From: Rubripirellula reticaptiva
GTDB lineage: Bacteria; Planctomycetota; Planctomycetia; Pirellulales; Pirellulaceae
Direction of reading: 5' to 3'
NCBI RefSeq assembly: GCF_007860175.1
Contig: NZ_SJPX01000003.1
Location: 631,380-695,379, forward strand
DNA: 64,000 nucleotides
Shown: piece by piece, positions 1,409 through 32,318 of the stretch
Layout: each line of letters begins with the position of its first letter
Numbering within the stretch: position 1 is the first letter of the stretch
Notes under the pieces: model-generated
The model's database searches: none
The model's input: only the letters and a program-made list of their open reading frames with translations
What the model was told of the DNA's origin: nothing
Program-made: the position numbers and the translations under genes

Positions 1409-1822
1409 ATGCCCGTCAAAATGCAACTTGCTCGGATCATCATTTCCGAGCTGACCGAGAATCAAGTCATCTACTTGCAAGAAGTCGATGGGCAGCGTGA
1501 ATTCCCGATTTTGATCGGAATCTTCGAAGCCACCAACATCGACCGACGCGTCAAAGATGACTACGAACCGCCACGTCCGCTGACTCATGATCTGATCGTC
1601 GCCGTTGCACAGTCGCTCGGGGCGACACTGCAAAGTGTCATCATCAGCGATCTGAACCAAGCGACTTATTACGCAAAGCTTGTCTTGCAAAAAGAGGACG
1701 GTGAAACCATCGAAATCGATTCTCGGCCGAGCGATGCGATCGCGATCGCTGTGACGTTCTCGCCGCCACTGCCGATCTTTGTGGCCGAACATGTGTTGGA
1801 CGAAGCGACCTCGTCGCTCTAG
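1409..1822 (+). CDS. Bifunctional nuclease (BFN, DUF151) domain protein
   Basis: A 137-residue single-domain protein of the BFN/DUF151 family. Family members are reported to have DNase and RNase activity or to act as stress-related regulators, and in many bacteria the domain stands alone, as here. Typical features are visible: the start VKMQLARIIISE, the central segment FPILIGIFEA, the RPLTHDL turn and the ending SRPSDAIAIAVTFSPPLPIFVAE, where SRPSDAIA is the most conserved block. Length is normal. Its stop is only 5 bases before panC, so the two are probably co-transcribed; a functional link with pantothenate synthesis is not implied. Confidence 0.9.
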   Translation: MPVKMQLARIIISELTENQVIYLQEVDGQREFPILIGIFEATNIDRRVKDDYEPPRPLTHDLIVAVAQSLGATLQSVIISDLNQATYYAKLVLQKEDGETIEIDSRPSDAIAIAVTFSPPLPIFVAEHVLDEATSSL

Positions 1823-1827
1823 ATCGC

Positions 1828-2664
1828 ATGCAAATCATCCACAGCGGCGATGAAGTCCGCCAATTGGTTTGGTCGATGCGTGGCCGTGGCAAAACCGTGG
1901 GCGTTGTTCCAACGATGGGCGCGCTGCACGATGGGCACGTGTCGTTGGTGCGCAAAAGTGTCGAACTGTGCGACCACACTATCGTCACCATCTTTGTGAA
2001 CCCAACCCAGTTCGCCGCTGGCGAAGACTTGGAAAAGTATCCACGAACGTTTGACGCTGATTGTCAGGCTGTGAAGGCCGCCGGCGCCGTCTGTGTGTTC
2101 TCGCCTTCGATCACAGAAATGTATCCGGACGGATGCAGTACGTTTGTCGATCCGCCTGCCGTTGCGTTGCCGCTTGAAGGTATCTCTCGACCAGAACACT
2201 TCCGCGGCGTCACAACAATCGTTGCCAAGCTGTTCAACCTGATTCCAGCGACGCATGCCGTCTTCGGCAGCAAGGACTACCAGCAATTGAAAGTGGTCGA
2301 AGCGATGGTCAGTGACCTGAATTTTGGTATTCAGATCGTCGCGGGCGGGATCATCCGCGAACCCGATGGTTTGGCGATGAGCAGCCGGAATCGATACCTT
2401 TCGCCAGCCGATCGAGCATCTGCGTTGTCATTGTCGGCTGCACTTCGCGGTGCGAAAGAACTTGCCCGTGGCGGTGAGACGGACATCGCAAAGCTCGAAG
2501 CCGCGATGCAGAAAAGTCTGGCCGGCGTCGACAAACTCGAATACGCGACTATCGTTGACGCCAACACGTTACAGCCAATGCAGACGCTTCGGTCGCCTGC
2601 CCAGGCTCTGATAGCTGCGCGTGTCGGGACTACACGGTTGATCGATAACGAGCGGATTTTGTAG
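1828..2664 (+). CDS. panC: Pantothenate synthetase (pantoate--beta-alanine ligase)
   Basis: Joins pantoate and beta-alanine with ATP to form pantothenate, the precursor of coenzyme A; a cytoplasmic member of the HIGH-motif nucleotidyltransferase superfamily. Seen directly: VPTMGALHDGH near residue 27 (the ATP-binding HxGH), FVNPTQFAAGEDLEKYPRT, the pantoate-loop segment PEHFRGVTTIV, FGSKDYQQL and the SSRNRYLS (KMSKS-like) motif. At 278 residues it has the usual length. It follows the BFN gene by 5 bases. No other pantothenate gene is nearby. Confidence 0.97.
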   Translation: MQIIHSGDEVRQLVWSMRGRGKTVGVVPTMGALHDGHVSLVRKSVELCDHTIVTIFVNPTQFAAGEDLEKYPRTFDADCQAVKAAGAVCVFSPSITEMYPDGCSTFVDPPAVALPLEGISRPEHFRGVTTIVAKLFNLIPATHAVFGSKDYQQLKVVEAMVSDLNFGIQIVAGGIIREPDGLAMSSRNRYLSPADRASALSLSAALRGAKELARGGETDIAKLEAAMQKSLAGVDKLEYATIVDANTLQPMQTLRSPAQALIAARVGTTRLIDNERIL

Positions 2665-2742
2665 GTTTCGTAAAACCGTTTCGTTCTAGGCTGCTCGTGA
2701 AGCCAGTGTTTGCGGAAGGCGACAATCCGTTACACTTCCGGC

Positions 2743-4062
2743 ATGTTCGGACTCTTTCAATCTCGCCCGCCGCTGTCGACTTTCGCTCGCGTCGATATCG
2801 AATTGCTGCTGCGCCGCTGTGTCGAAGTCATCGGTGCTGACGTGGTCGTCAGTGCGGAGGTCATCACCGACATCAAACAATTGGATCTGAACGCGGATTC
2901 GCCTGCAAACTTGATCGCGTCCGCAGCCGAGCAAGTTAGCCGTTGTTTGCAAGTGGATATTCGCGACATCCAGTTCCTGCACGACGACGATCCTGAATTT
3001 GCATTCGCGTCGACCTACGCCAATGGCACGATCAGGCTTCACCGCGAAGTCACCACGGACCCGCTGCGAACTGTGGTCGAGATCGCCAATCAACTGGCTC
3101 ACCATTTCTGGGTGCATCAGCCTGCACCACGGCCGCTCGATACTCATGCACGAACGACCACGTTGATGCCGATCGCGATGGGGCTGGGGGTATTGGCCAG
3201 CAAGGCGTCACTGCAAGAATCACACTGGAACGCGGCCGGATACAGCGGTTGGTCGATGTCGCGATGCGGCTACTATAGCGCTCTCGAAATCGGGTACGCG
3301 TTGGCATTGATGGCGAGGCTTCGCGGTGAGTCGTCGCCCGCCTGGCTTTCGAGTTTGCGATTGGATACTAAGAAGACATTCCAGGCTGCTCAGAAGTATT
3401 TTTCGAAACATGAATCCGCTGGCGGTGAGTTGCTCTTCGACGCCAGCCGCATTCCATCGAGCGACCGGGACGCCACCGAGTTGTCCAACTGGTTGGCAGG
3501 CAGCGATTCCACGTTTGCGATGGCGGCTGCCTATGCGCTTGCCAAGTTCGACCAAATTCCGAGTGTCGCGGCCGACGCCGCGCTTGCATTGACTCGTTCA
3601 AAGGATTCCGAGTTGGTGGTCTTGGCGACAAGACTGCTCGGAAAAACGTCTAACGAAGATTCGCGAATCAACCCGCAAATCTTGACTCTGGTTGCTCAGC
3701 GAATCAACCCGATTGCTTTAGCCGCTCTGCATTCGGCTAGCCAGCGTGGGATGCCGATGTTGGCGTTGAAGCCACAGATCGAAAAACTGCTGTCCGACCC
3801 CTCGCTCGACTTGATCCCAGTCGTCGATTTGATTCGTAAGCACGCCCGCGAACTATCTTCCTTATCGGCGGCTGTTTGCCAACAAACTGCTGCCGCGATT
3901 CGCTTCAAAGACGACGAAGCTACCGCGACGCTGTTGGAATGTCTTTCGCAAATGGTCGACGACCCAGTCTGCGAAGTTGAAAGACACATCCGCAACGCGG
4001 ATACTAGGGCCTTGGCGATCGAGAGACTGCAAGCGGGCAAAGCAAGCAAGATTGGCGATTGA
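2743..4062 (+). CDS. Conserved hypothetical protein, alpha-helical C-terminal half
   Basis: I do not recognise a named family. ATG 2743 is preferred over an upstream TTG (2710); it gives about 439 residues starting MFGLFQSRPP. The N-terminal 130 residues are mixed alpha/beta and contain VVEIANQLAHHFWVHQPAP, a helix with clustered histidines that recalls a metallopeptidase-like helix but lacks HExxH. The C-terminal part (roughly residues 225-430) is a run of Ala/Leu helices (AAAYALAKFD, AADAALALTRSKDSELVVLATRLLGK) resembling HEAT-type repeats. No signal peptide or membrane segment. The next gene starts 8 bases after its stop, suggesting an operon. Confidence 0.75.
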   Translation: MFGLFQSRPPLSTFARVDIELLLRRCVEVIGADVVVSAEVITDIKQLDLNADSPANLIASAAEQVSRCLQVDIRDIQFLHDDDPEFAFASTYANGTIRLHREVTTDPLRTVVEIANQLAHHFWVHQPAPRPLDTHARTTTLMPIAMGLGVLASKASLQESHWNAAGYSGWSMSRCGYYSALEIGYALALMARLRGESSPAWLSSLRLDTKKTFQAAQKYFSKHESAGGELLFDASRIPSSDRDATELSNWLAGSDSTFAMAAAYALAKFDQIPSVAADAALALTRSKDSELVVLATRLLGKTSNEDSRINPQILTLVAQRINPIALAALHSASQRGMPMLALKPQIEKLLSDPSLDLIPVVDLIRKHARELSSLSAAVCQQTAAAIRFKDDEATATLLECLSQMVDDPVCEVERHIRNADTRALAIERLQAGKASKIGD

Positions 4063-4070
4063 GAGAACCC

Positions 4071-5144
4071 ATGACCACTCAACCGATCAGCGAAACGGCT
4101 GAGCCAAATTTGGATCAGGCGGCGATTGCTGATTATTTTGCGTCGGAACAGTTCAAGCGGTCTTGTTCGACCAGGTTGTCGGAGGACGAAAAAGCGTTCC
4201 GCGACGAAGTTCGGTACGATCAGCGACGCGGCCGATTGCTGCGAGCTTGGACTCTTGAGTTGGAACGAGAAGACGGTCTCAGCATGGGGATCGCTTTCTA
4301 CGGATTGGGTTCCTGTTGGTTAGCGATTGCCATTTTTGTGCCGCACGGCGTTTGGATGCTGGGCGGGTTCACCAATCAAGTGTTCGGGTTCTGGATCACG
4401 CTGGTGCAGTTCACGTTCGCGCCGATGTTGATGTGTTTGGCGATGATCTCGGTCACGTCGTCGATGTGGTACGTCTCGCTAGCGAAGCGTTTTGCGACGG
4501 CGATCGCAATACTAACACCGGCGACGTTGATGCTGATCTTTGGACTCGTCCAGATGTCGTGGATCGAATGGAGTGACGTGTGGCCGCGAGTCCCATTCTT
4601 GGTGATCTCCTTCTGTGTGGCTTCGACCGCAGTGACACTGCCGCTGCAGATGTGGGGCGGATGGTCATTGTCGCAAGCTCGCGAGATGCCGCGGGAATTG
4701 CCTCGGCTTAGCACCTACCAGTTCCTAGAACTCACTGCGATTGCGTCCGTGATTTTCGCTGTCGGCGTATTCGTGCGGGATCGCAGCATTTGGTATGAAG
4801 GGCTCGCATGCACCCTCATTTCTCTGCTATGCACGTTGGCCGTCACCGCGATGATCGTCACTCGGTTGAATAAACTGCGACGTTACCGTTTCATCGGGTT
4901 TGTCATCGCATCGGTGTTTGGATTTACCGCGATGTTGATTGTCAGCTTGTTCGGGTTTTCCCGATTCGAAGAAACCATGTTCTGGAACAATCAAGCCGAG
5001 CAAACTTTCGCGATCTTGATTGCGTCCACGATCGGAGCCGCGATTTTCGTCGGGACTATGCAACTAGCCACATGGTGGCTGCATTTGTGCGGATGGCAAT
5101 GCGTCAAACTCAACAAAGTCGAGGGGGCGGCACCTTCCGATTGA
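4071..5144 (+). CDS. Multi-pass membrane protein of unknown function
   Basis: ATG 4071 (MTTQPISETAE) is favoured over the in-frame TTG 4059, which overlaps the previous stop. The product has about 357 residues. A charged cytoplasmic-type N-terminus of about 65 residues is followed by about eight hydrophobic segments in pairs: GIAFYGLGSCWLAIAIFV, VFGFWITLVQFTFAPMLM, FATAIAILTPATLMLIFGLV, VPFLVISFCVASTAVTLPL, LTAIASVIFAVGVFV, LACTLISLLCTLAVTAMIV, FIGFVIASVFGFTAMLIV and a last one near the C-terminus. No family motif is recognised. It is the last gene before the convergent sdhB and is probably co-transcribed with the gene at 2743. Confidence 0.8.
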   Translation: MTTQPISETAEPNLDQAAIADYFASEQFKRSCSTRLSEDEKAFRDEVRYDQRRGRLLRAWTLELEREDGLSMGIAFYGLGSCWLAIAIFVPHGVWMLGGFTNQVFGFWITLVQFTFAPMLMCLAMISVTSSMWYVSLAKRFATAIAILTPATLMLIFGLVQMSWIEWSDVWPRVPFLVISFCVASTAVTLPLQMWGGWSLSQAREMPRELPRLSTYQFLELTAIASVIFAVGVFVRDRSIWYEGLACTLISLLCTLAVTAMIVTRLNKLRRYRFIGFVIASVFGFTAMLIVSLFGFSRFEETMFWNNQAEQTFAILIASTIGAAIFVGTMQLATWWLHLCGWQCVKLNKVEGAAPSD

Positions 5145-5175
5145 AGGTCACGCGCCCCATCTCTAAGTGCCGATG

Positions 5176-6030
5176 TTATTTATTGAGCCACTTTGTGACC
5201 GCACGCACGGTCGTTGCGCGCCCGGCACGGGCGATCGATGTCGTCAGCGGAATTTCTTTGGGGCAAACCGAGACGCAGTTCTGTGCGTTGCCGCAGGCTG
5301 CCACACCGCCAGGACCCATCAACGTGTCCAATCGTTCGTTGGCAAGCGTTTTTCCGGTCGGATGGTTATTGAATAGCATCGACTGCGAGATTGCGTGAGC
5401 GCCGACGAAACCTTCGCTGAACTCAGCTTCTTTGCGAGCTTCGAACGCTTCGTCTGACTCGTCTGCTCCTTGCGTCAATTCGATCTTCGTGTATTGCGGG
5501 CACGCTTCCAAGCAACATCCACAGCTCATGCACTGGCTAAGCGGGTAGTTCTGCTCTTGCGTTTCGCGCGGAATCCGTTCGCCGGGTCCAAGGTTGTAAT
5601 AGCTGTCGACTGGTACCCAAGCTTGGACGCGTTTCAGGCCGCTGAACAAACGTTGGCGGTCAACCATCAAGTCACGTAGAACCGGAAACTTGCTCATTGG
5701 TTCGAGCACGATTTCGTCGGAATTCTCTTTCAACAGCTGGTCGACCAGTGCGCTGCAGCTTTGACGTACTCGTCCGTTGATTAGCATCGTGCAGGAACCG
5801 CAAACTTCTTCCAAGCAGCCGCAATCCCATGATACTGGGGCAACCGATTTGCCGTCCGACGTCTTCGCTTGCTGAGCGAGACGCATCAGAACAGTGATCA
5901 CGTTGAGCTCAGGCTCATATTTGATCTTATGCAATTCCCAATACGGCTCCTTCCCAGGACCATCTTGGCGACGCACGCGGACATTGATGAATTCAGGTCG
6001 TTTTTTGGTGCTGGGTTCGAGGGCAATCAT
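5176..6030 (-). CDS. sdhB: Succinate dehydrogenase iron-sulfur subunit
   Basis: Carries electrons from the flavoprotein to the quinone site of respiratory complex II. The N-terminal ferredoxin domain shows the [2Fe-2S] ligands CGCLEEVCGSC plus a later Cys (RQSC). The C-terminal domain carries CMSCGCCLEACP and CGNAQNCVSVCPKEI for the [4Fe-4S] and [3Fe-4S] clusters. The 284-residue length and the motif style match the Bacillus/epsilon-type (non-E. coli) enzyme. Gene order on the minus strand is sdhC-sdhA-sdhB; a 126-base gap separates it from sdhA. It is the last gene of the operon and converges with the membrane-protein gene at 4071. Confidence 0.96.
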   Translation of the reverse strand: MIALEPSTKKRPEFINVRVRRQDGPGKEPYWELHKIKYEPELNVITVLMRLAQQAKTSDGKSVAPVSWDCGCLEEVCGSCTMLINGRVRQSCSALVDQLLKENSDEIVLEPMSKFPVLRDLMVDRQRLFSGLKRVQAWVPVDSYYNLGPGERIPRETQEQNYPLSQCMSCGCCLEACPQYTKIELTQGADESDEAFEARKEAEFSEGFVGAHAISQSMLFNNHPTGKTLANERLDTLMGPGGVAACGNAQNCVSVCPKEIPLTTSIARAGRATTVRAVTKWLNK

Positions 6031-6156
6031 CCGTCGATCCTATCTGCGTTGGAATTAGAATTTGGATTGATGAAAATCTGTAGTCACGGTTAGGCAACCG
6101 CAGCCAAGTTCTGCGACGTAATTGAGTTTACGTCGCAATCAAGTCGTCGAGTGCGA

Positions 6157-8145
6157 TCAGGCGTTTACCGCAACCGCTTGCTGTTGTTGCTTCTTGGCCA
6201 ATGCCCGCTCATTCCAGACCTTTTCGATGTCTTCCGCTCCGACCAAACCATAAAGCCGAGGTCGTGGCGGTTGCAGCGAAGTGTCAACGTCTTCGTAGGT
6301 GATTTCGGGCATCATCGTGTCCTTGTTCCAGGTCGCAATCGAGCTCTTCAGGAACTTGCGATTGTTTTCCTCGAAGTCATCGCACCACTGTTCCGCCTGC
6401 TTCCGACGTTCAACCGGATCTTCGGAAGTCAACGATGGTTTCGCAAAGTCGGGTTTGAAGTGAGCACCGCGGCACTCATCTCGCATCAACGCGCCCTTGA
6501 GCAGCGTCTTCGCCAACGGGAACATGTCCTGTAGAGCTTTCGTGAAGATCACGTTCTGGTTGGACCAGGTGCCTGTATCTGACAATTTTGCCTTCATCGC
6601 ACGCTTGTGCAGCGCGTCGACTTTTTCAATCGCATCGGACAGTTGATCGTTCCGGCGAACGACGGTCGCGACCCGAGTCATGATGTCACCGAGTTCTTGG
6701 TGAATCAAATAGGGGTTCTCATCAGCCGAGGCATCGCCGTTGAGCAACGCGTCGTGACGGTCCTGTTCCTTCTTGACCGCCGCATCCGAAATCGCGGGCG
6801 ACAAATCTTTGTAGCCTTCTTTCTGGCTGGCCGCGTAGTTTTGAATGGACGTGCCCGTAAACAGGCCGGTGAAGATGCACGACAACAGCGAGTTCGCACC
6901 CAACCGGTTTGCACCGTGATAGTGGTAATCGCATTCGCCGATCGCGTACAAACCCGGGATGTTGGTCATATGATTTCGCGGGGCACCAGCTTCCATCCCG
7001 CCGCTGGAGCTCTTTACATAATCGGCCCACAATCCGCCCATGCTGTAGTGGACGGCCGGGAAGATTCGCATCGGCTCGATTCGTGGGTCAACGCCCTGGA
7101 ACTTTTCATAGATTTCCAAGATGCCACCGAGCTTGCGATCAAGTTCAGCTTTCGGAATGTGCGTCAGGTCCAAGTAAACTGACATGCGATCTGATTCGAT
7201 GCTGAGTCCTTCGTTGACACAGATATCGAAAATCTCTCGAGTCGCAATGTCCCGCGGCACCAAGTTGCCGTACGTCGGATAACGTTCCTCGAGGAAGTAA
7301 TATCGTTCGTTTTCTGGAATGTCATTCGGCTCGCGTGGGTCCTGCGGAGTCCGCGGCACCCATACTCGGCCGCCTTCGCCCCGAGCCGATTCGCTCATCA
7401 AACGCAGCTTGTCGCTGCCCGGGATTGCGGTCGGGTGGACCTGGATAAATTCGCCGTTACCGTACTTGGCACCCGCTTGGAAACAACGGCTCGCTGCACT
7501 ACCGGTGCAGAAAACGCTCATCGTGCTACGGCCATAGATCAGGCCACAACCGCCTGTTGCGACAACAATCGCATCCGCTGGAAAGGCTCGAATCTTCATC
7601 GACACCATGTCCTGAGCGACTGCACCGCGACAACGGCCTTCGTCATCCAAAATTGGTCCCAAAAAGTCCCAGAATTCGTACTTCTTGACCAGGCCTTCAC
7701 TTTCGCGGCGGCGCACTTGTTCGTCCAAGCCGTAAAGCAACTGCTGACCGGTGGTCGCACCCGCGAATGCGGTTCTCTTGTAAAGAGTGCCGCCAAAACG
7801 TCGGCGGTCCAAGAAACCTTCATCCGTGCGGTTAAAAGGAACACCCAAGCGGTCCATCAATTCGATGATCTTGGGGGCCCAGTCGGACATTTCTTTGACT
7901 GGCGGTTGATGGTTCAGGAAGTCACCGCCATAAACCGTATCGTCGAAGTGATTCCACTCGCTGTCGCCAAGCTGTCGAGTCTGATCATTGCAACTGTTGA
8001 TCCCGCCCTGCGCACAGACGCTGTGCGAGCGTTTTACAGGAGTCAGACTTAGCAGGTCGACCGCGACACCCAGTTCGGCCAATTTCATGGTCGATGCGAG
8101 GCCTGCCAAACCGCCACCGATAACCACTACGCGATGTTCTGACAT
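6157..8145 (-). CDS. sdhA: Succinate dehydrogenase flavoprotein subunit
   Basis: Oxidises succinate to fumarate with covalently bound FAD, linking the citric acid cycle to respiration. Seen in the 662-residue product: the FAD dinucleotide fold VVIGGGLAGLAS at residues 6-17, the flavin-linking His in RSHSVCAQGGIN, the second FAD segment DAIVVATGGCGLIYG, active-site elements FIQVHPTAIPG and ESARGEGGRVWVP, and HYSMGGLWADY. The long insert and C-terminus match the Bacillus-type SdhA. The start ATG is supported by the FAD fold beginning at once. It sits between sdhC and sdhB in one transcription unit. Confidence 0.97.
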   Translation of the reverse strand: MSEHRVVVIGGGLAGLASTMKLAELGVAVDLLSLTPVKRSHSVCAQGGINSCNDQTRQLGDSEWNHFDDTVYGGDFLNHQPPVKEMSDWAPKIIELMDRLGVPFNRTDEGFLDRRRFGGTLYKRTAFAGATTGQQLLYGLDEQVRRRESEGLVKKYEFWDFLGPILDDEGRCRGAVAQDMVSMKIRAFPADAIVVATGGCGLIYGRSTMSVFCTGSAASRCFQAGAKYGNGEFIQVHPTAIPGSDKLRLMSESARGEGGRVWVPRTPQDPREPNDIPENERYYFLEERYPTYGNLVPRDIATREIFDICVNEGLSIESDRMSVYLDLTHIPKAELDRKLGGILEIYEKFQGVDPRIEPMRIFPAVHYSMGGLWADYVKSSSGGMEAGAPRNHMTNIPGLYAIGECDYHYHGANRLGANSLLSCIFTGLFTGTSIQNYAASQKEGYKDLSPAISDAAVKKEQDRHDALLNGDASADENPYLIHQELGDIMTRVATVVRRNDQLSDAIEKVDALHKRAMKAKLSDTGTWSNQNVIFTKALQDMFPLAKTLLKGALMRDECRGAHFKPDFAKPSLTSEDPVERRKQAEQWCDDFEENNRKFLKSSIATWNKDTMMPEITYEDVDTSLQPPRPRLYGLVGAEDIEKVWNERALAKKQQQQAVAVNA

Positions 8146-8296
8146 GGGATGCTGTTCCTAACCGTTTTCAATATCTGACGTTGAGTTCAATTTTGCAGAC
8201 TTTGGATCTGCACGCTGTTGTTTTACTCGGTGATAACCGCGATTTTCGAGGCAAAATAACAGCCATCACCTGGCTGCTCTCTGACTTGCCAACCGG

Positions 8297-9151
8297 CTAC
8301 TCAGTCTCTACCAGTTCAATTTCGACGACTTCGCCACCCGTAATTTGGGTATCCCGTTTCGAGCGTTTTTCTTCGTTTTCGGGGATCCAACCAGACTCGA
8401 CCGAGGCTTCATACATGCGGTCTTCAATCTGTCGGTATTCGGCAATCTCTTTTTCACCCGGCGCGACTGCGGCCCACCAAGCTGTGGTCCCGATGAACGC
8501 TATCAGTACGCCAAACACCGTGCAGATTTTCGATGCACGAGCTTGTGCGTTTGGTGAAATCCAAAGTCCCCAAGTAATCCCGGCAGTCCACAAACCGTTG
8601 GCCAAGTGGTACACGCAGGCCAACATTCCGACCAGGTAAAACGCCGGCCATAGGTAGCCTTCCATCGCTTGAACCAATGAACTGGCGGCGTTGTAAGGCG
8701 AGAACGCACCGAAACCGATCGGCTGAATCACGCTCAACCAAACGTGAGCGTGCAGCCAACCGTGCAGGTGTAGAACGTGAAAAAACAGATACACAAGGGC
8801 GATGATGCCCGTCACCCGTTGCCAAACGTAGCGGCGGTTGTTGGTGAATTTGTAGTGGTCGCTATTGGAACGCCCCGTCTTGGCGATCCAAACTCCGATG
8901 ATCGCATGAAACAACAGCGGCAAGAATATTCCACCCCACTCAATTACCGGCAGCAATTGCCCCGGACTGTGGATCAAATACACGGCTCGTTGAAACATGT
9001 CGGACCCGCTGATCAAACTGGCGTTCGTCGTCAGGTGAACGCACATGTACAGACCAAGCGGAACGATGCCCAACAACGAATGAATGCGGCGAATCGCAAA
9101 CTCGTGTCGCATGAAAAAGCTGTGTGCCGATGGGGAGGCGGGCGCGCTCAT
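8297..9151 (-). CDS. sdhC: Succinate dehydrogenase cytochrome b558 subunit
   Basis: Membrane anchor and haem b protein of complex II. ATG 9151 (MSAPASPSAHSFF) is chosen; the open frame runs 47 codons further upstream but that part is not protein-like for this family. Five hydrophobic segments are visible (IHSLLGIVPLGLYMCVHL, WGGIFLPLLFHAIIGVWI, VTGIIALVYLFFHVLHL, AFYLVGMLACVYHLANGLW, ICTVFGVLIAFIGTTAWW), with His residues near membrane faces suitable as haem ligands. The single fused anchor explains why no sdhD is present, as in Bacillus. It is the first gene of the operon and is divergent from the gntP-family gene; the promoters must lie in 9152-9313. Confidence 0.93.
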   Translation of the reverse strand: MSAPASPSAHSFFMRHEFAIRRIHSLLGIVPLGLYMCVHLTTNASLISGSDMFQRAVYLIHSPGQLLPVIEWGGIFLPLLFHAIIGVWIAKTGRSNSDHYKFTNNRRYVWQRVTGIIALVYLFFHVLHLHGWLHAHVWLSVIQPIGFGAFSPYNAASSLVQAMEGYLWPAFYLVGMLACVYHLANGLWTAGITWGLWISPNAQARASKICTVFGVLIAFIGTTAWWAAVAPGEKEIAEYRQIEDRMYEASVESGWIPENEEKRSKRDTQITGGEVVEIELVETE

Positions 9152-9313
9152 GTGGTGAGATCGATTATGAGTGTTGAGACATTGCGAGTAGATGGTGCGA
9201 GTAAAGCACACGCTCACCTCGCTAAGCGTTAGGTTAATGCAAAAACCCTTCGAGGTGTGATGCCACCAAGGGTGGATAAGTTGTCGCAGCAAGTGCGATC
9301 TTGGAACTTTATT

Positions 9314-26972: not shown

Positions 26973-28016
26973 TCATCCGCCCGCGAACTTCCGCCGGCAG
27001 CAAGGGCATTCACCCTCGATTCCCTGTGGTAGAGCCATGAAAGCGGAAGGCTGAGGGATCGTCATGATTGCTTTGAATGCCAATGGATCTCGATGAGCAT
27101 AGTGCCGGTACGTGACGCCGCTCACAGAGTGACCGAGGATTTCGATGGAAGACTCAGGCAGGTGTTCGTCATAGTATGTCGCGCAGGTCTTGCGGAGGTC
27201 CTTCAGCAGCCAGTCTTTGGCAACGCCGGTTTCAATGTCGACTTTATCGCGAATCCCGGCGAGGGCGATCAACCGTTTGAAGACCGCGTTGGGTCTCGCA
27301 GTTCCACCCACGAAGATCGGTTCCTCCGGTACGAGCGTCGGAGGTTGAAGGCGACGCAAATGTGCGTGAACCGCTCGATTCATCGGCCGATAGAACGATT
27401 TGTTCGTTTTAACTCGTCGATAGAATATCCATCCATAGCGAGATCGAAGCTTCGATTGTCGATCGGGCGATTCACGGCTCCAGAAAACGTGCCGCCATAA
27501 GAGCGGTTCGTGAGTTGTTTTGGTCTTCCAGATGGTACCCGTGTCCAGGCCGTAGTTGAAAAAAAGAACGATTGCGGATCGCCAGTACTGGCCAAACGAG
27601 TGCGGTTGCTTCCACGCGCGTGGTCGGCGCATCTGGTACGTGGCAAAGTAGAGTGCGTTCAGTTCCGCCTTGCTCAGATACTGACGACCAGCGACATCGC
27701 GTTGCGGACGCGGCTTTGGGAATCGCGGAAGCGATTCAATGATGTCGTTTTCCCATGCCCATGCGGCGACAGCGCGGACATGATCACGTGCCTTGTTCGA
27801 TGTCCGCTCCGGATTCTCACCCCCTTGTTCAACCGCATCGTCGTAAACCCAATCCAGGAAATCTCGAATGCTTGATCGAGATAGCTGTTCCAGAGGAATC
27901 TCTTGCCCCCAACTGATCCACTTTCTCACGGTGGCTTTGTACTCGTCGCTTGTACCCTTCGAGTGCTTTTTGGCTTTGCAATAGCGTTGGACAGCGGATG
28001 GAAACTTTGTCGACAT
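26973..28016 (-). CDS. Tyrosine recombinase / phage-type integrase
   Basis: About 347 residues. ATG 28016 (MSTKFPSAVQRYCKAKKHSKGT) is preferred because AGGAG stands about ten bases before it; another ATG lies six codons upstream. The N-terminal half is a SAM-like core-binding domain (TSDEYKATVRKWISWG..PLEQLSRSSIRDFLDWVYDD). The catalytic domain shows KTNKSFYRPMN (beta-hairpin Lys), KDLRKTCATYYDEH (box II Arg, His replaced by Lys), LGHSVSGVTYRHYAH with the nucleophile Tyr. The usual first Arg is not visible in YGLDTGTIWK. It ends CPCCRRKF, a Cys-rich tail. It marks the adjacent DNA as integrated or mobile. Confidence 0.85.
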   Translation of the reverse strand: MSTKFPSAVQRYCKAKKHSKGTSDEYKATVRKWISWGQEIPLEQLSRSSIRDFLDWVYDDAVEQGGENPERTSNKARDHVRAVAAWAWENDIIESLPRFPKPRPQRDVAGRQYLSKAELNALYFATYQMRRPRAWKQPHSFGQYWRSAIVLFFNYGLDTGTIWKTKTTHEPLLWRHVFWSRESPDRQSKLRSRYGWIFYRRVKTNKSFYRPMNRAVHAHLRRLQPPTLVPEEPIFVGGTARPNAVFKRLIALAGIRDKVDIETGVAKDWLLKDLRKTCATYYDEHLPESSIEILGHSVSGVTYRHYAHRDPLAFKAIMTIPQPSAFMALPQGIEGECPCCRRKFAGG

Positions 28017-28348
28017 TTGGAGAATCTCCTGCATTGCCGTCGACTACCTCCAGTAGGCTCCGCTCGACGTGCTACGGGGCTGAGTGCTCCTTGCTCGACT
28101 TCCGAATCTGGGAATGGAAATGTGACTTTCCAGGATAGTTCGAGCAAACGCGACGGATCCAGGTCGATGAACCGGTGGATCGTTAGATCGTGCGTTGTAC
28201 TGGACTGTTGAGGTCACCGACACGCATCTTGTGGCCTGTCGCAGTCGTGGAACTGGCATATTCGCGCCCAGGCAATTGAGGAAGTGAGCCTGTCACAGGT
28301 GCATGCACGATTTATCGACCGAACGGACAAAACCAATCAGAGACCGCC
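28017..28348. other. Upstream region of the integrase gene, no gene seen
   Basis: No coding sequence with support. It separates the integrase from the divergent zinc-ribbon miniprotein and presumably contains both promoters. No tRNA or long repeat is visible. Confidence 0.4.
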
Positions 28349-28543
28349 ATGACCACTACCTGCCCTCGATGCAGACAGACGTTGCAGAGCGGAAGCGGAT
28401 TCTGCGTAGGTTGTGGTCTCACTTGCACGGACGTCGATTCGCGGAAGTTCAGATTAGAACAGGATGCACGAAGTCGAATTGACCGGGCAAGGCTACTTGG
28501 AAGGCTATTCCGATTCCTACGTTGGATACGATGGGTTCGCTGA
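28349..28543 (+). CDS. Small zinc-ribbon protein
   Basis: A possible 64-residue protein starting MTTTCPRCRQTLQ. CPRC and CVGCG, 12 residues apart, form a zinc-ribbon; the rest is Arg-rich and helical (RKFRLEQDARSRIDRARLLGRLFRFLRW), which would suit nucleic-acid or membrane-surface contact. Its reality rests on the paired CxxC motifs. It lies in the accessory block between the integrase and the HEPN gene. Confidence 0.45.
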   Translation: MTTTCPRCRQTLQSGSGFCVGCGLTCTDVDSRKFRLEQDARSRIDRARLLGRLFRFLRWIRWVR

Positions 28544-29111: not shown

Positions 29112-30272
29112 ATGGCAGCGGACGAATGGGAAGATTTGAGGACGAAGGTTAGATGCACGCTGGCGCCAATCAAAGAGGTCGACGCCAATACGCAAGCCGA
29201 AAAGGACTTCCTGTTCAAAGCTGAGGAGACGGTTGAGGGCCGACAACTGCCGCCGTACCAAATCGTTCACTTTCTTTTTTGCGATTTGCTCGGATTCCGG
29301 AACCTTGGCCGATTCGAGAAAATCGCGTGGTCAGTTCCGATCGACTTCGACGGTCGCGCATTTCTTATTGAGCATCGAAAGTTCGGACTGGGCTTGTTCG
29401 CACGCGACAAAGATACAGACAAGGATGACGCCCGGCAAATCGTAAAAAAGATTCGGAAGGCGTCGAAGGTCGCACGCCCGTACTTTGACTTTATTGCGAG
29501 TCGGGCGGTAGCTGCATCTGAAATAAGCGTTATGAACCGGTCGAATGAGCTTTTTGAACGATTCACTTTCTTTGTCGAACTGTATCGCGGCGAACGGGGC
29601 GAGGCTGAATCAAGGAAAGACGAAACGATCAAGACAGTCAATGGAAACAGCACGCTCATCCAATTTCCGCACAAGCAATTGGAACGCAACGCAAAGTGGC
29701 TGGCTATTTCTGCGATTGACGCATTTTACAGTTGGACAGAGCATTTGTTCGTACACATCGCGATCGTCCTTCGCGGGATTGACAGTGGCGAAGCGATTGC
29801 AGAGCTGACCGGCGTTGAGTGGGGAGATAAATTCAAAACGTCAATTGGCATCGACCAGCCCGTTGCGAAGAAATACTACGACGAATTGGTCATCGTTCGT
29901 CGACAGCTTCGCAATTTCTTGGCTCATGGCGCGTTCGGGAAGAACGGCCAGGCGTTTAATTTTCACTCCAGTGCCGGTGCCGTACCCGTCTTGATGCCAC
30001 ACGACAAGAGCAAAAGCCGTTTCGCTCTCGATGATAACTTGGCCTTCGAGGAAGACGCTGTGATTGAACTCCTGGAGAAGTTCGTGGACTTTCTTTGGAA
30101 AGGTGAAACAGAAACGGCAATGCATTATGTGCAGGAGAGCTATCTCCCCTCCATCCTGACACTTGCAAAAGACGGGACTTACGCCAAAGCAACAAACTCC
30201 CTTGAGGAAATGAATGAAATGATCGATCACCTTTCGGGGCAATTCGATCGCGCCGCAAACATGGACTGGTAG
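29112..30272 (+). CDS. HEPN-like putative RNase protein
   Basis: A 386-residue soluble protein that I cannot assign to a named family. The C-terminal half contains VIVRRQLRNFLAHGAFG, with Arg267 and His272 in the R-N-x3-H pattern of HEPN ribonuclease toxins, inside a helical context (YDELVIVRRQLRNFLAHG). An upstream helix AIDAFYSWTEHLFVHIAIVL fits the other half of a HEPN bundle. The N-terminal 200 residues have no recognised motif and could be a sensor. HEPN proteins often act as RNases in toxin-antitoxin, CRISPR and abortive-infection systems. The next gene, encoding a nuclease-like protein, starts 36 bases after its stop. Confidence 0.65.
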   Translation: MAADEWEDLRTKVRCTLAPIKEVDANTQAEKDFLFKAEETVEGRQLPPYQIVHFLFCDLLGFRNLGRFEKIAWSVPIDFDGRAFLIEHRKFGLGLFARDKDTDKDDARQIVKKIRKASKVARPYFDFIASRAVAASEISVMNRSNELFERFTFFVELYRGERGEAESRKDETIKTVNGNSTLIQFPHKQLERNAKWLAISAIDAFYSWTEHLFVHIAIVLRGIDSGEAIAELTGVEWGDKFKTSIGIDQPVAKKYYDELVIVRRQLRNFLAHGAFGKNGQAFNFHSSAGAVPVLMPHDKSKSRFALDDNLAFEEDAVIELLEKFVDFLWKGETETAMHYVQESYLPSILTLAKDGTYAKATNSLEEMNEMIDHLSGQFDRAANMDW

Positions 30273-30308
30273 CGCCGAGAGCCGACAAGTACTTAGAACC
30301 AAAATCAA

Positions 30309-31349
30309 ATGAACGACAAACCGGATATCGAGCGCATTCGCGTTCTACACGACGTGCAAACTCATTTTGAGTTGCCGAACGACGCAAGAAAGAACTTAGA
30401 ATCACAGCTCTCGTCAGTAGACCAAGACCGAGTCGAACGGTTTGTTTCAGGTTTCAAGATAGAAGACTGGTTCGAGTGGATTTTCTGTGCGATGCCGTGG
30501 GCTGTCCTGATCCATGGTCTCGATCAGCAACAGTTTCCAACGCGATCAAAATCTCTTTACCAGGTTCCGGACTTCCTGATGCTGGTTGAAACAACGGCAT
30601 TGACTCACCAGCCATTGCTCGTTGAGGTCAAACGAGTCCAGCGAGACAAAACGACGCTAAAACTGGCGTCGTCTCAGGTTTCCATCGCGGAGGCGTACGC
30701 GGAGAGTCTGGGGATGCCTATCGTGTATGTTGTATACTGGGAAAAGTTTAACGTCTGGACGGTCAACACGCCTGACACGTTGAATCGCAAGTCGTCAAGT
30801 GCGAAGCTGCCGCTGACCAGGGCACTCGAGTTTGATTGCAGTCTCATTCTCGGTGACGTTTCGTATTTCCTGCCACAGTCGCTCCAGCGGACGTCACTCT
30901 TCGACAAGTCCGCCACAATAACTGATTCGTCTGTACGACACACAGATCACGGAGCGATGGTTTGCGATTCAGCGAAGCTAGGAGATCGAACAGTCGAATT
31001 GGAAGGCTTCGAGTCAGCAGCAATCGATTGTGCGTTGTCCATGATAGAAAGAGACATCCGCACCTCCCCTGGCGGACAGGTACAAAGCAAATCAAGTCCC
31101 AGTGACAACTACATGATTAAGTTGAGTACTTGGATCACGCGGCATTTGGCGATATTCGACACTACTCCGAGTGAAACTCTCTCCAACGGGTCGGCGCACG
31201 CAATCACTGAATTGATGGAGAAGCTTGGGTGCCCCAAACTACAAATGTTCCCGACCGATCGATCATTCCAAATACAACAACTTGCGACCCTATTCATGAC
31301 TCCCGCGCAGGTTGAAGAAGTGGCGACTTCTGATTCGCATGCGTCCTAG
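30309..31349 (+). CDS. Putative PD-(D/E)xK nuclease partner of the HEPN protein
   Basis: 346 residues, no named family recognised. The segment VPDFLMLVETTALTHQPLLVEVKRVQ shows the PD-(D/E)xK nuclease core: Asp88 in PD, then Glu106 and Lys108 in EVK after a hydrophobic strand, followed by a helix (LASSQVSIAEAYAESLG) and strand (MPIVYVVYW), the fold order of restriction-like endonucleases. The C-terminal third is helical and may bind DNA or a partner. It immediately follows the HEPN gene, so the two probably form one defence or toxin module. Related possibility: a recombination or DNA-repair nuclease. Confidence 0.65.
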   Translation: MNDKPDIERIRVLHDVQTHFELPNDARKNLESQLSSVDQDRVERFVSGFKIEDWFEWIFCAMPWAVLIHGLDQQQFPTRSKSLYQVPDFLMLVETTALTHQPLLVEVKRVQRDKTTLKLASSQVSIAEAYAESLGMPIVYVVYWEKFNVWTVNTPDTLNRKSSSAKLPLTRALEFDCSLILGDVSYFLPQSLQRTSLFDKSATITDSSVRHTDHGAMVCDSAKLGDRTVELEGFESAAIDCALSMIERDIRTSPGGQVQSKSSPSDNYMIKLSTWITRHLAIFDTTPSETLSNGSAHAITELMEKLGCPKLQMFPTDRSFQIQQLATLFMTPAQVEEVATSDSHAS

Positions 31350-32156: not shown

Positions 32157-32318
32157 TCGCAGCGTACTGCAAGCCTGTCTCTCGGAAAACGTGAGGGTGG
32201 ATACCCAAACTCATCGCAAGTGAAGCCCCTTGCTGTCAGCCGAAGCTACGCTGACGCAAAGCAATGCCTTGCGCGGATTGACTGCCGTTCGTGCCGGACG
32301 CCGATTTGGCTGTTGGCC

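Follow-up and report, generated by a model that had tools for sequence, protein, structure and literature searches.

Two adjacent genes of the planctomycete Rubripirellula reticaptiva, hereafter gene 1 and gene 2, lie on a stretch of 64,000 nucleotides of contig NZ_SJPX01000003.1 (the window). The original prediction, made from the sequence alone, read them as a HEPN ribonuclease-like and a PD-(D/E)xK nuclease-like protein that could together form an RNA/DNA-degrading defence module. Both open reading frames (ORFs) are present where it had placed them, with 36 bases between 30272 and 30309, a gap across which they may be co-transcribed (Table 1). The comparison of relatives presented here preserves the two protein assignments and, as far as the search reached, dissolves the unit: these are probably two separate candidate phage-defence genes, not one new two-part system.

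Table 1. Features of the locus (positions in the window)
Feature	Position	Strand	Description
Gene 1	29112..30272	+	ORF, 386 residues, HEPN-type ribonuclease candidate
HEPN catalytic motif of gene 1, R267-N268-x3-H272	29910..29927	+	72/72 full-length rows
Gene 2	30309..31349	+	ORF, 346 residues, PD-(D/E)xK nuclease-like; plasmid and viral-contig relatives known
Hjc-like nuclease core of gene 2, residues 49-184	30453..30860	+	E52, D72, D88 and K108 invariant, E106 nearly so
Diverged tyrosine recombinase/integrase	26973..28034	-	divergent from gene 1 and gene 2; Pfam matches

The motif Arg267-Asn-x3-His272 proposed for the first protein is found as R267-N268-F-L-A-H272 and is its sole RN-x3-H. 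Composition shuffles of protein 1 produce RN-x3-H in 2.2% of cases and the loose form R-x4-6-H in 86%, and PD-x8-30-[DE]xK arises in 13% of the protein-2 shuffles. Because shuffles produce them, catalytic motifs alone are weak evidence; relatives were therefore gathered and conservation was taken as decisive. The genome scan for gene 1, based on a five-row alignment and two patterns, gave 88 confirmed matches, the best 80 of which were kept and represent 79 distinct loci. In the window and 85 loci, 91 ORFs matched the gene-1 profile: 72 are full length (340-440 residues; a few are identical or duplicates of the same gene) and 19, from 14 loci, were set aside. R267, N268 and H272 are each present in all 72 full-length rows, a conservation that is partly ascertained because RN..AHG formed part of one of the two patterns used in the scan; the relatives found without that pattern, on plasmids (H14-H17) and on two viral contigs (L100, L101), all carry the motif. 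K90, G92, N142, S207, E210, H211, W237, K240 and G273 are equally invariant (72/72). As for the loci set aside, 13 of the 14 have a piece with RN-x3-H, and the remaining one (L004) lacks the C-terminal part.

The plasmid matches to gene 1 came from seven records at expect values (E) up to 1; the four that were retrieved are H14-H17, H16 being the same plasmid as L078. A sample of 392 genomes of the phylum contained three matches besides the window genome, two of them strong, one of these (L005) being the same gene as L084, and one marginal (E 0.009). Scans with the single gene-1 protein returned nothing from viral contigs or from the phage collection, and a DNA search for the Tenebrionibacter relative (L081, Enterobacteriaceae) found no match in the E. 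coli genomes searched. Gene 1 falls in no Pfam or NCBIfam family at cut-off, and the window protein has no match in PHROGs (at 0.01) or PADLOC. In a limited literature search no listing named the family, and we make no claim that it is unpublished.

The structure model of gene 1 (predicted local distance difference test 90.7) and the 67-row family alignment divide the protein into an N-terminal mixed domain peculiar to the family (about residues 1-135), in which K90 and G92 lie, with N142 just after it, and a helical, probable HEPN domain (about residues 141-329). The four structure entries that align best are all HEPN, and the helical bundle fits those of HepT and of the sacsin HEPN domain best; a Foldseek search of PDB and BFVD with the model found nothing at E 0.001. 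HEPN proteins are recognised by R-x4-6-H with a polar residue after the arginine, and gene 1 shows it as R267-N268-x3-H272, that is, R-x4-H. The superfamily also has a second conserved acidic residue, typically within E-x3-[KR] (PMC3710099); E210 is invariant in the gene-1 family, yet the window protein reads E-x3-V. A few of the 67 members weakly match the HEPN models of Csx1, Csm6 and Swt1 (best 0.016 in one search), and a second profile search reached 1e-4 against a Csx1/Csm6 model, with 1-3 members per match. Structure comparison and family conservation together support the first protein as HEPN ribonuclease-like. Differently from HepT and from Csx1/Csm6, it has neither a nucleotidyltransferase nor a CRISPR partner in the set of window proteins that was scanned. 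The N-terminal domain gave no convincing fold match within the full-length model, which does not amount to a demonstration of a new fold. A distantly related genome from the same phylum (L004, 1453-1929 and 1926-2807) carries the N-terminal 125 or so residues of the family alone, with 52% identity; this piece shares 4 bases with an ORF that resembles, by eye, an Mrr-type restriction nuclease. Either the gene has been truncated there, or a sensor domain has been recruited to a different nuclease, and the latter would make the domain a swappable sensor.

In the second protein, D88 and E106-V-K108 are found as proposed (Asp88...Glu106-x-Lys108). D88 and K108 are conserved in 18/18 members of its family and E106 in 17/18, the other having D; these figures too are partly ascertained. 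The predicted structure has the alpha-beta core of PD-(D/E)xK nucleases, in which neighbouring strands carry D and (D/E)xK, and its nuclease core aligns to such cores over about 110-120 residues; in the C-terminal half the model is unreliable. The core is shared with the Hjc resolvase (PDB 2wcw, 2wiw) and the nuclease subunit of SPARDA (9qcc), from which gene 2 differs by extra N- and C-terminal parts and by an identity of only about 14%; moreover, unlike SPARDA, it has no Argonaute partner in the scanned set of window proteins. In sequence it matches TnsA-like and Hjc nucleases weakly, and against the NCBIfam Hjc model (cut-off 70 bits) the gene-2 protein (P0002) has no match and its relative P0007 scores 16.1 bits. 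Structure and family conservation again support the assignment as PD-(D/E)xK nuclease-like, and gene 2 probably acts on DNA. Scans of viral contigs with the single proteins of gene 2 or its relative P0006 returned nothing, nor did the phage collection, and the nine-row alignment was too divergent for a scan.

In the data searched, the two families do not occur together. Gene-2 profiles of 9 and 18 rows, run on six-frame translations, detect a gene-2 relative at 0/87 gene-1 loci, and the gene-1 profile detects its family at 0/20 gene-2 loci; on their own families the same profiles recover 87/87 and 20/20 loci. The 87 loci include two duplicates, and flanks of at least 5 kilobases on both sides are available for 49 of the 79 genome loci; the 20 gene-2 loci are partly short and contain three repeats (L103, and L104/L105, which repeat L099/L098). 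A gene-2 relative was also sought anywhere in 39 of the 79 gene-1 genomes, and none had one, both positive-control genomes being recovered in the same search. Since no pairing appears at loci or in genomes, the window pair is the only one among the data searched. The original prediction had named in advance homologues that never pair as evidence against its module, and within these data this is what we found. A true two-component RNA/DNA-degrading defence module, so far in this lineage only, in which one protein may restrain or trigger the other, is accordingly improbable, although the genes share a strand, a short gap and a G+C content (0.507 in both, versus 0.52-0.57 in the six flanking genes measured), and neither has a match in the 8 other genomes of the same family that were searched, which fits a joint arrival.

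The surroundings of each family are informative separately. Taking the two ORFs closest to gene 1 in either direction at 74 loci gives 269, of which 239 were scanned after 30 had been dropped by hand (short, overlapping or near-duplicate). At 1e-10 they match 200 PADLOC models (117 ORFs) and 183 (122 ORFs), and among the matches listed (25 per set) are AbiEi, AbiD, Shedu SduA, Gabija GajA/GajB, PARIS AriA, Septu PtuA, Old and a type I restriction endonuclease. As a control, 115 other ORFs match 7 models, AriA among them; they come from 19 stretches, taken from positions 3001-12000 of contig 1 in genomes with gene 1 (one stretch spans only 1.6 kilobases, and a twentieth contig was too short), with 19 of 134 ORFs dropped by hand, and the ratio of neighbours to control is rough because these places are non-random and the counts are of models rather than proteins. 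Plainly metabolic genes occur as well among the neighbours of gene 1.

On the viral contig L101 the gene-1 relative follows an integrase. L100 has tail-like genes (by eye) and, in a row at 1773-6451, an AAA ATPase, a Cthe_2314-like HEPN gene (below the Pfam cut-off) and the gene-1 relative. A gene-2 relative adjoins an integrase in L108, and on the phage contig L102 another lies between portal and replication genes. We read this phage as P2-like, and the portal-replication interval of P2-like phages is described as a hotspot of anti-phage genes (PMC9122126). Two more unassigned genes share this interval (L102, 7251-9029), and the one at 7251-8072 matches nothing in Pfam or PHROGs at 0.01. The gene-1 family is found in defence-rich places and both families on mobile DNA; for the defence role proposed for the pair there is indirect support in each family taken by itself, stronger for gene 1, and none for the two together.

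The gene-1 family is distributed patchily over nine phylum labels. In a tree of 67 rows the window copy belongs to a starred set of 16 rows, 13 of them Bacteroidota, apart from the other planctomycete copy L084, its exact placement being unsure because of long branches and open forks. This position, together with the absence from the 8 other genomes of the same family, is what horizontal transfer to an accessory patch beside the recombinase would give. The gene-1 family appears to have spread horizontally, and each of the two families seems thinly distributed.

Gene 1 might instead be the toxin of a toxin-antitoxin pair, whose antitoxin would be gene 2 or the Xre-type gene of relatives. In L007 (6606-8146) the gene-1 relative is immediately preceded by a DUF2384 (Xre-like) gene that overlaps it by 4 bases, and in L020, L023 and L024 (about 6675-9161) a gene of the DUF2384 family lies two genes upstream; moreover, 2 of 117 neighbours match Pfam RES and 2 match Xre/MbcA. 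On the other side, a DUF2384 gene is present in only 4 of 86 sources (85 loci and the window) and is not among the window ORFs seen, and the conserved nuclease active site of gene 2 is unlike an antitoxin. For the MNT-HEPN type in particular, a Pfam scan of 8 window proteins gave no nucleotidyltransferase match, and gene 2 has a nuclease core. We regard this explanation as unlikely. The gene between the DUF2384 gene and the gene-1 relative in L020, L023 and L024 encodes 238 residues, probably a RES toxin, and there it is as if gene 1 had been added to a RES-Xre toxin-antitoxin pair.

Gene-1 relatives are broken into two ORFs each in L015, L062, L072, L079 and L091, which suggests decay of a costly gene. 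Such splitting is also seen in dispensable genes, as would suit a non-catalytic or housekeeping RNA-binding HEPN-like protein whose neighbourhood reflects island drift only; the invariance of R267, N268, H272, S207, E210, H211, W237 and K240, the defence-gene surroundings and the patchy distribution leave that explanation little room.

We therefore favour, as likely, the reading of gene 1 as a stand-alone HEPN ribonuclease acting in abortive infection, and of gene 2 as a separate, Hjc-like nuclease carried as independent cargo. Two points weigh against it: in the structure comparison of gene 1 the HEPN entries lead unrelated ones by only a small margin, and the gene-2 model is weak around D88. 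In HEPN proteins the arginine and histidine act in a metal-independent ribonuclease (PMC3710099, Anantharaman et al. 2013), and HEPN domains usually function as dimers (PMC11087260); by analogy, gene 1 would be expected to dimerise and to cleave RNA without metal. Its N-terminal domain, or a contact made through it, would hold or sense a trigger; upon infection the HEPN dimer would cut RNA through R267, N268 and H272 and so halt the cell. Gene 2 would be a PD-(D/E)xK nuclease riding beside it in a small accessory patch by the integrase.

The closest parallel in mode of action would be Tha, a tail-activated HEPN system of Staphylococcus aureus prophages that acts once a phage tail protein appears; Tha-1 has the motif R265NSIMH270, and Tha is borne by prophages near the integrase (PMC11087260). 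Gene 1 is likewise a single protein of 300-400 residues with a C-terminal HEPN domain bearing R-N-x3-H, and carriage by prophages near the integrase is a further resemblance. The two differ in that no sequence homology was found beyond the motif (hhalign probability 0.1 for the gene-1 family profile with one Tha sequence, 80alpha gp03, taken as Tha-1 because it has 301 residues and contains RNSIMH), and in that the N-terminal domain is confidently predicted in gene 1 and reported with low confidence for Tha (PMC11087260). A bolder and more tentative proposal, which we hold possible rather than probable, is that the gene-1 family is itself an anti-phage system, as yet undescribed, that consists of a single gene carried by prophages and plasmids and whose N-terminal domain senses infection directly and switches on the HEPN ribonuclease.

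Other features of the patch are less distinct. The recombinase that had been noted next to the pair matches Pfam Phage_int_SAM_1 with 23.2 bits (cut-off 22.3) and Phage_integrase with 20.4 (cut-off 27.1); the SAM-like domain lies just above its cut-off and Phage_integrase below, so that the call is weak, and its own genome holds no further match at E 1e-5. Around the patch we found no defensible attachment sites, only short imperfect repeats; promoter-like sites number 0 and terminator-like sites 4, not above shuffles, and Rfam gave no match. The otherwise ORF-poor stretch between recombinase and gene 1 holds a 64-residue ORF (28349-28543, +) whose two CxxC pairs resemble a zinc ribbon. Where the C-terminus of the recombinase is encoded (26988-27020), the sequence is 76% complementary over 33 bases to 32213-32245, right of gene 2, possibly the remnant of a second, oppositely oriented recombinase flanking the patch, or chance.

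What looked in one genome like a tidy two-gene unit did not survive the comparison with relatives, which guards against the naming of a false system. If the favoured reading is true, gene 1 adds to the HEPN ribonucleases a family for which the four profile libraries used (Pfam, NCBIfam, PHROGs, PADLOC) have no model, one that spans nine phylum labels and resides in defence-rich places and on viral contigs; consisting of one gene with a clear candidate active site, it would be easy to test.
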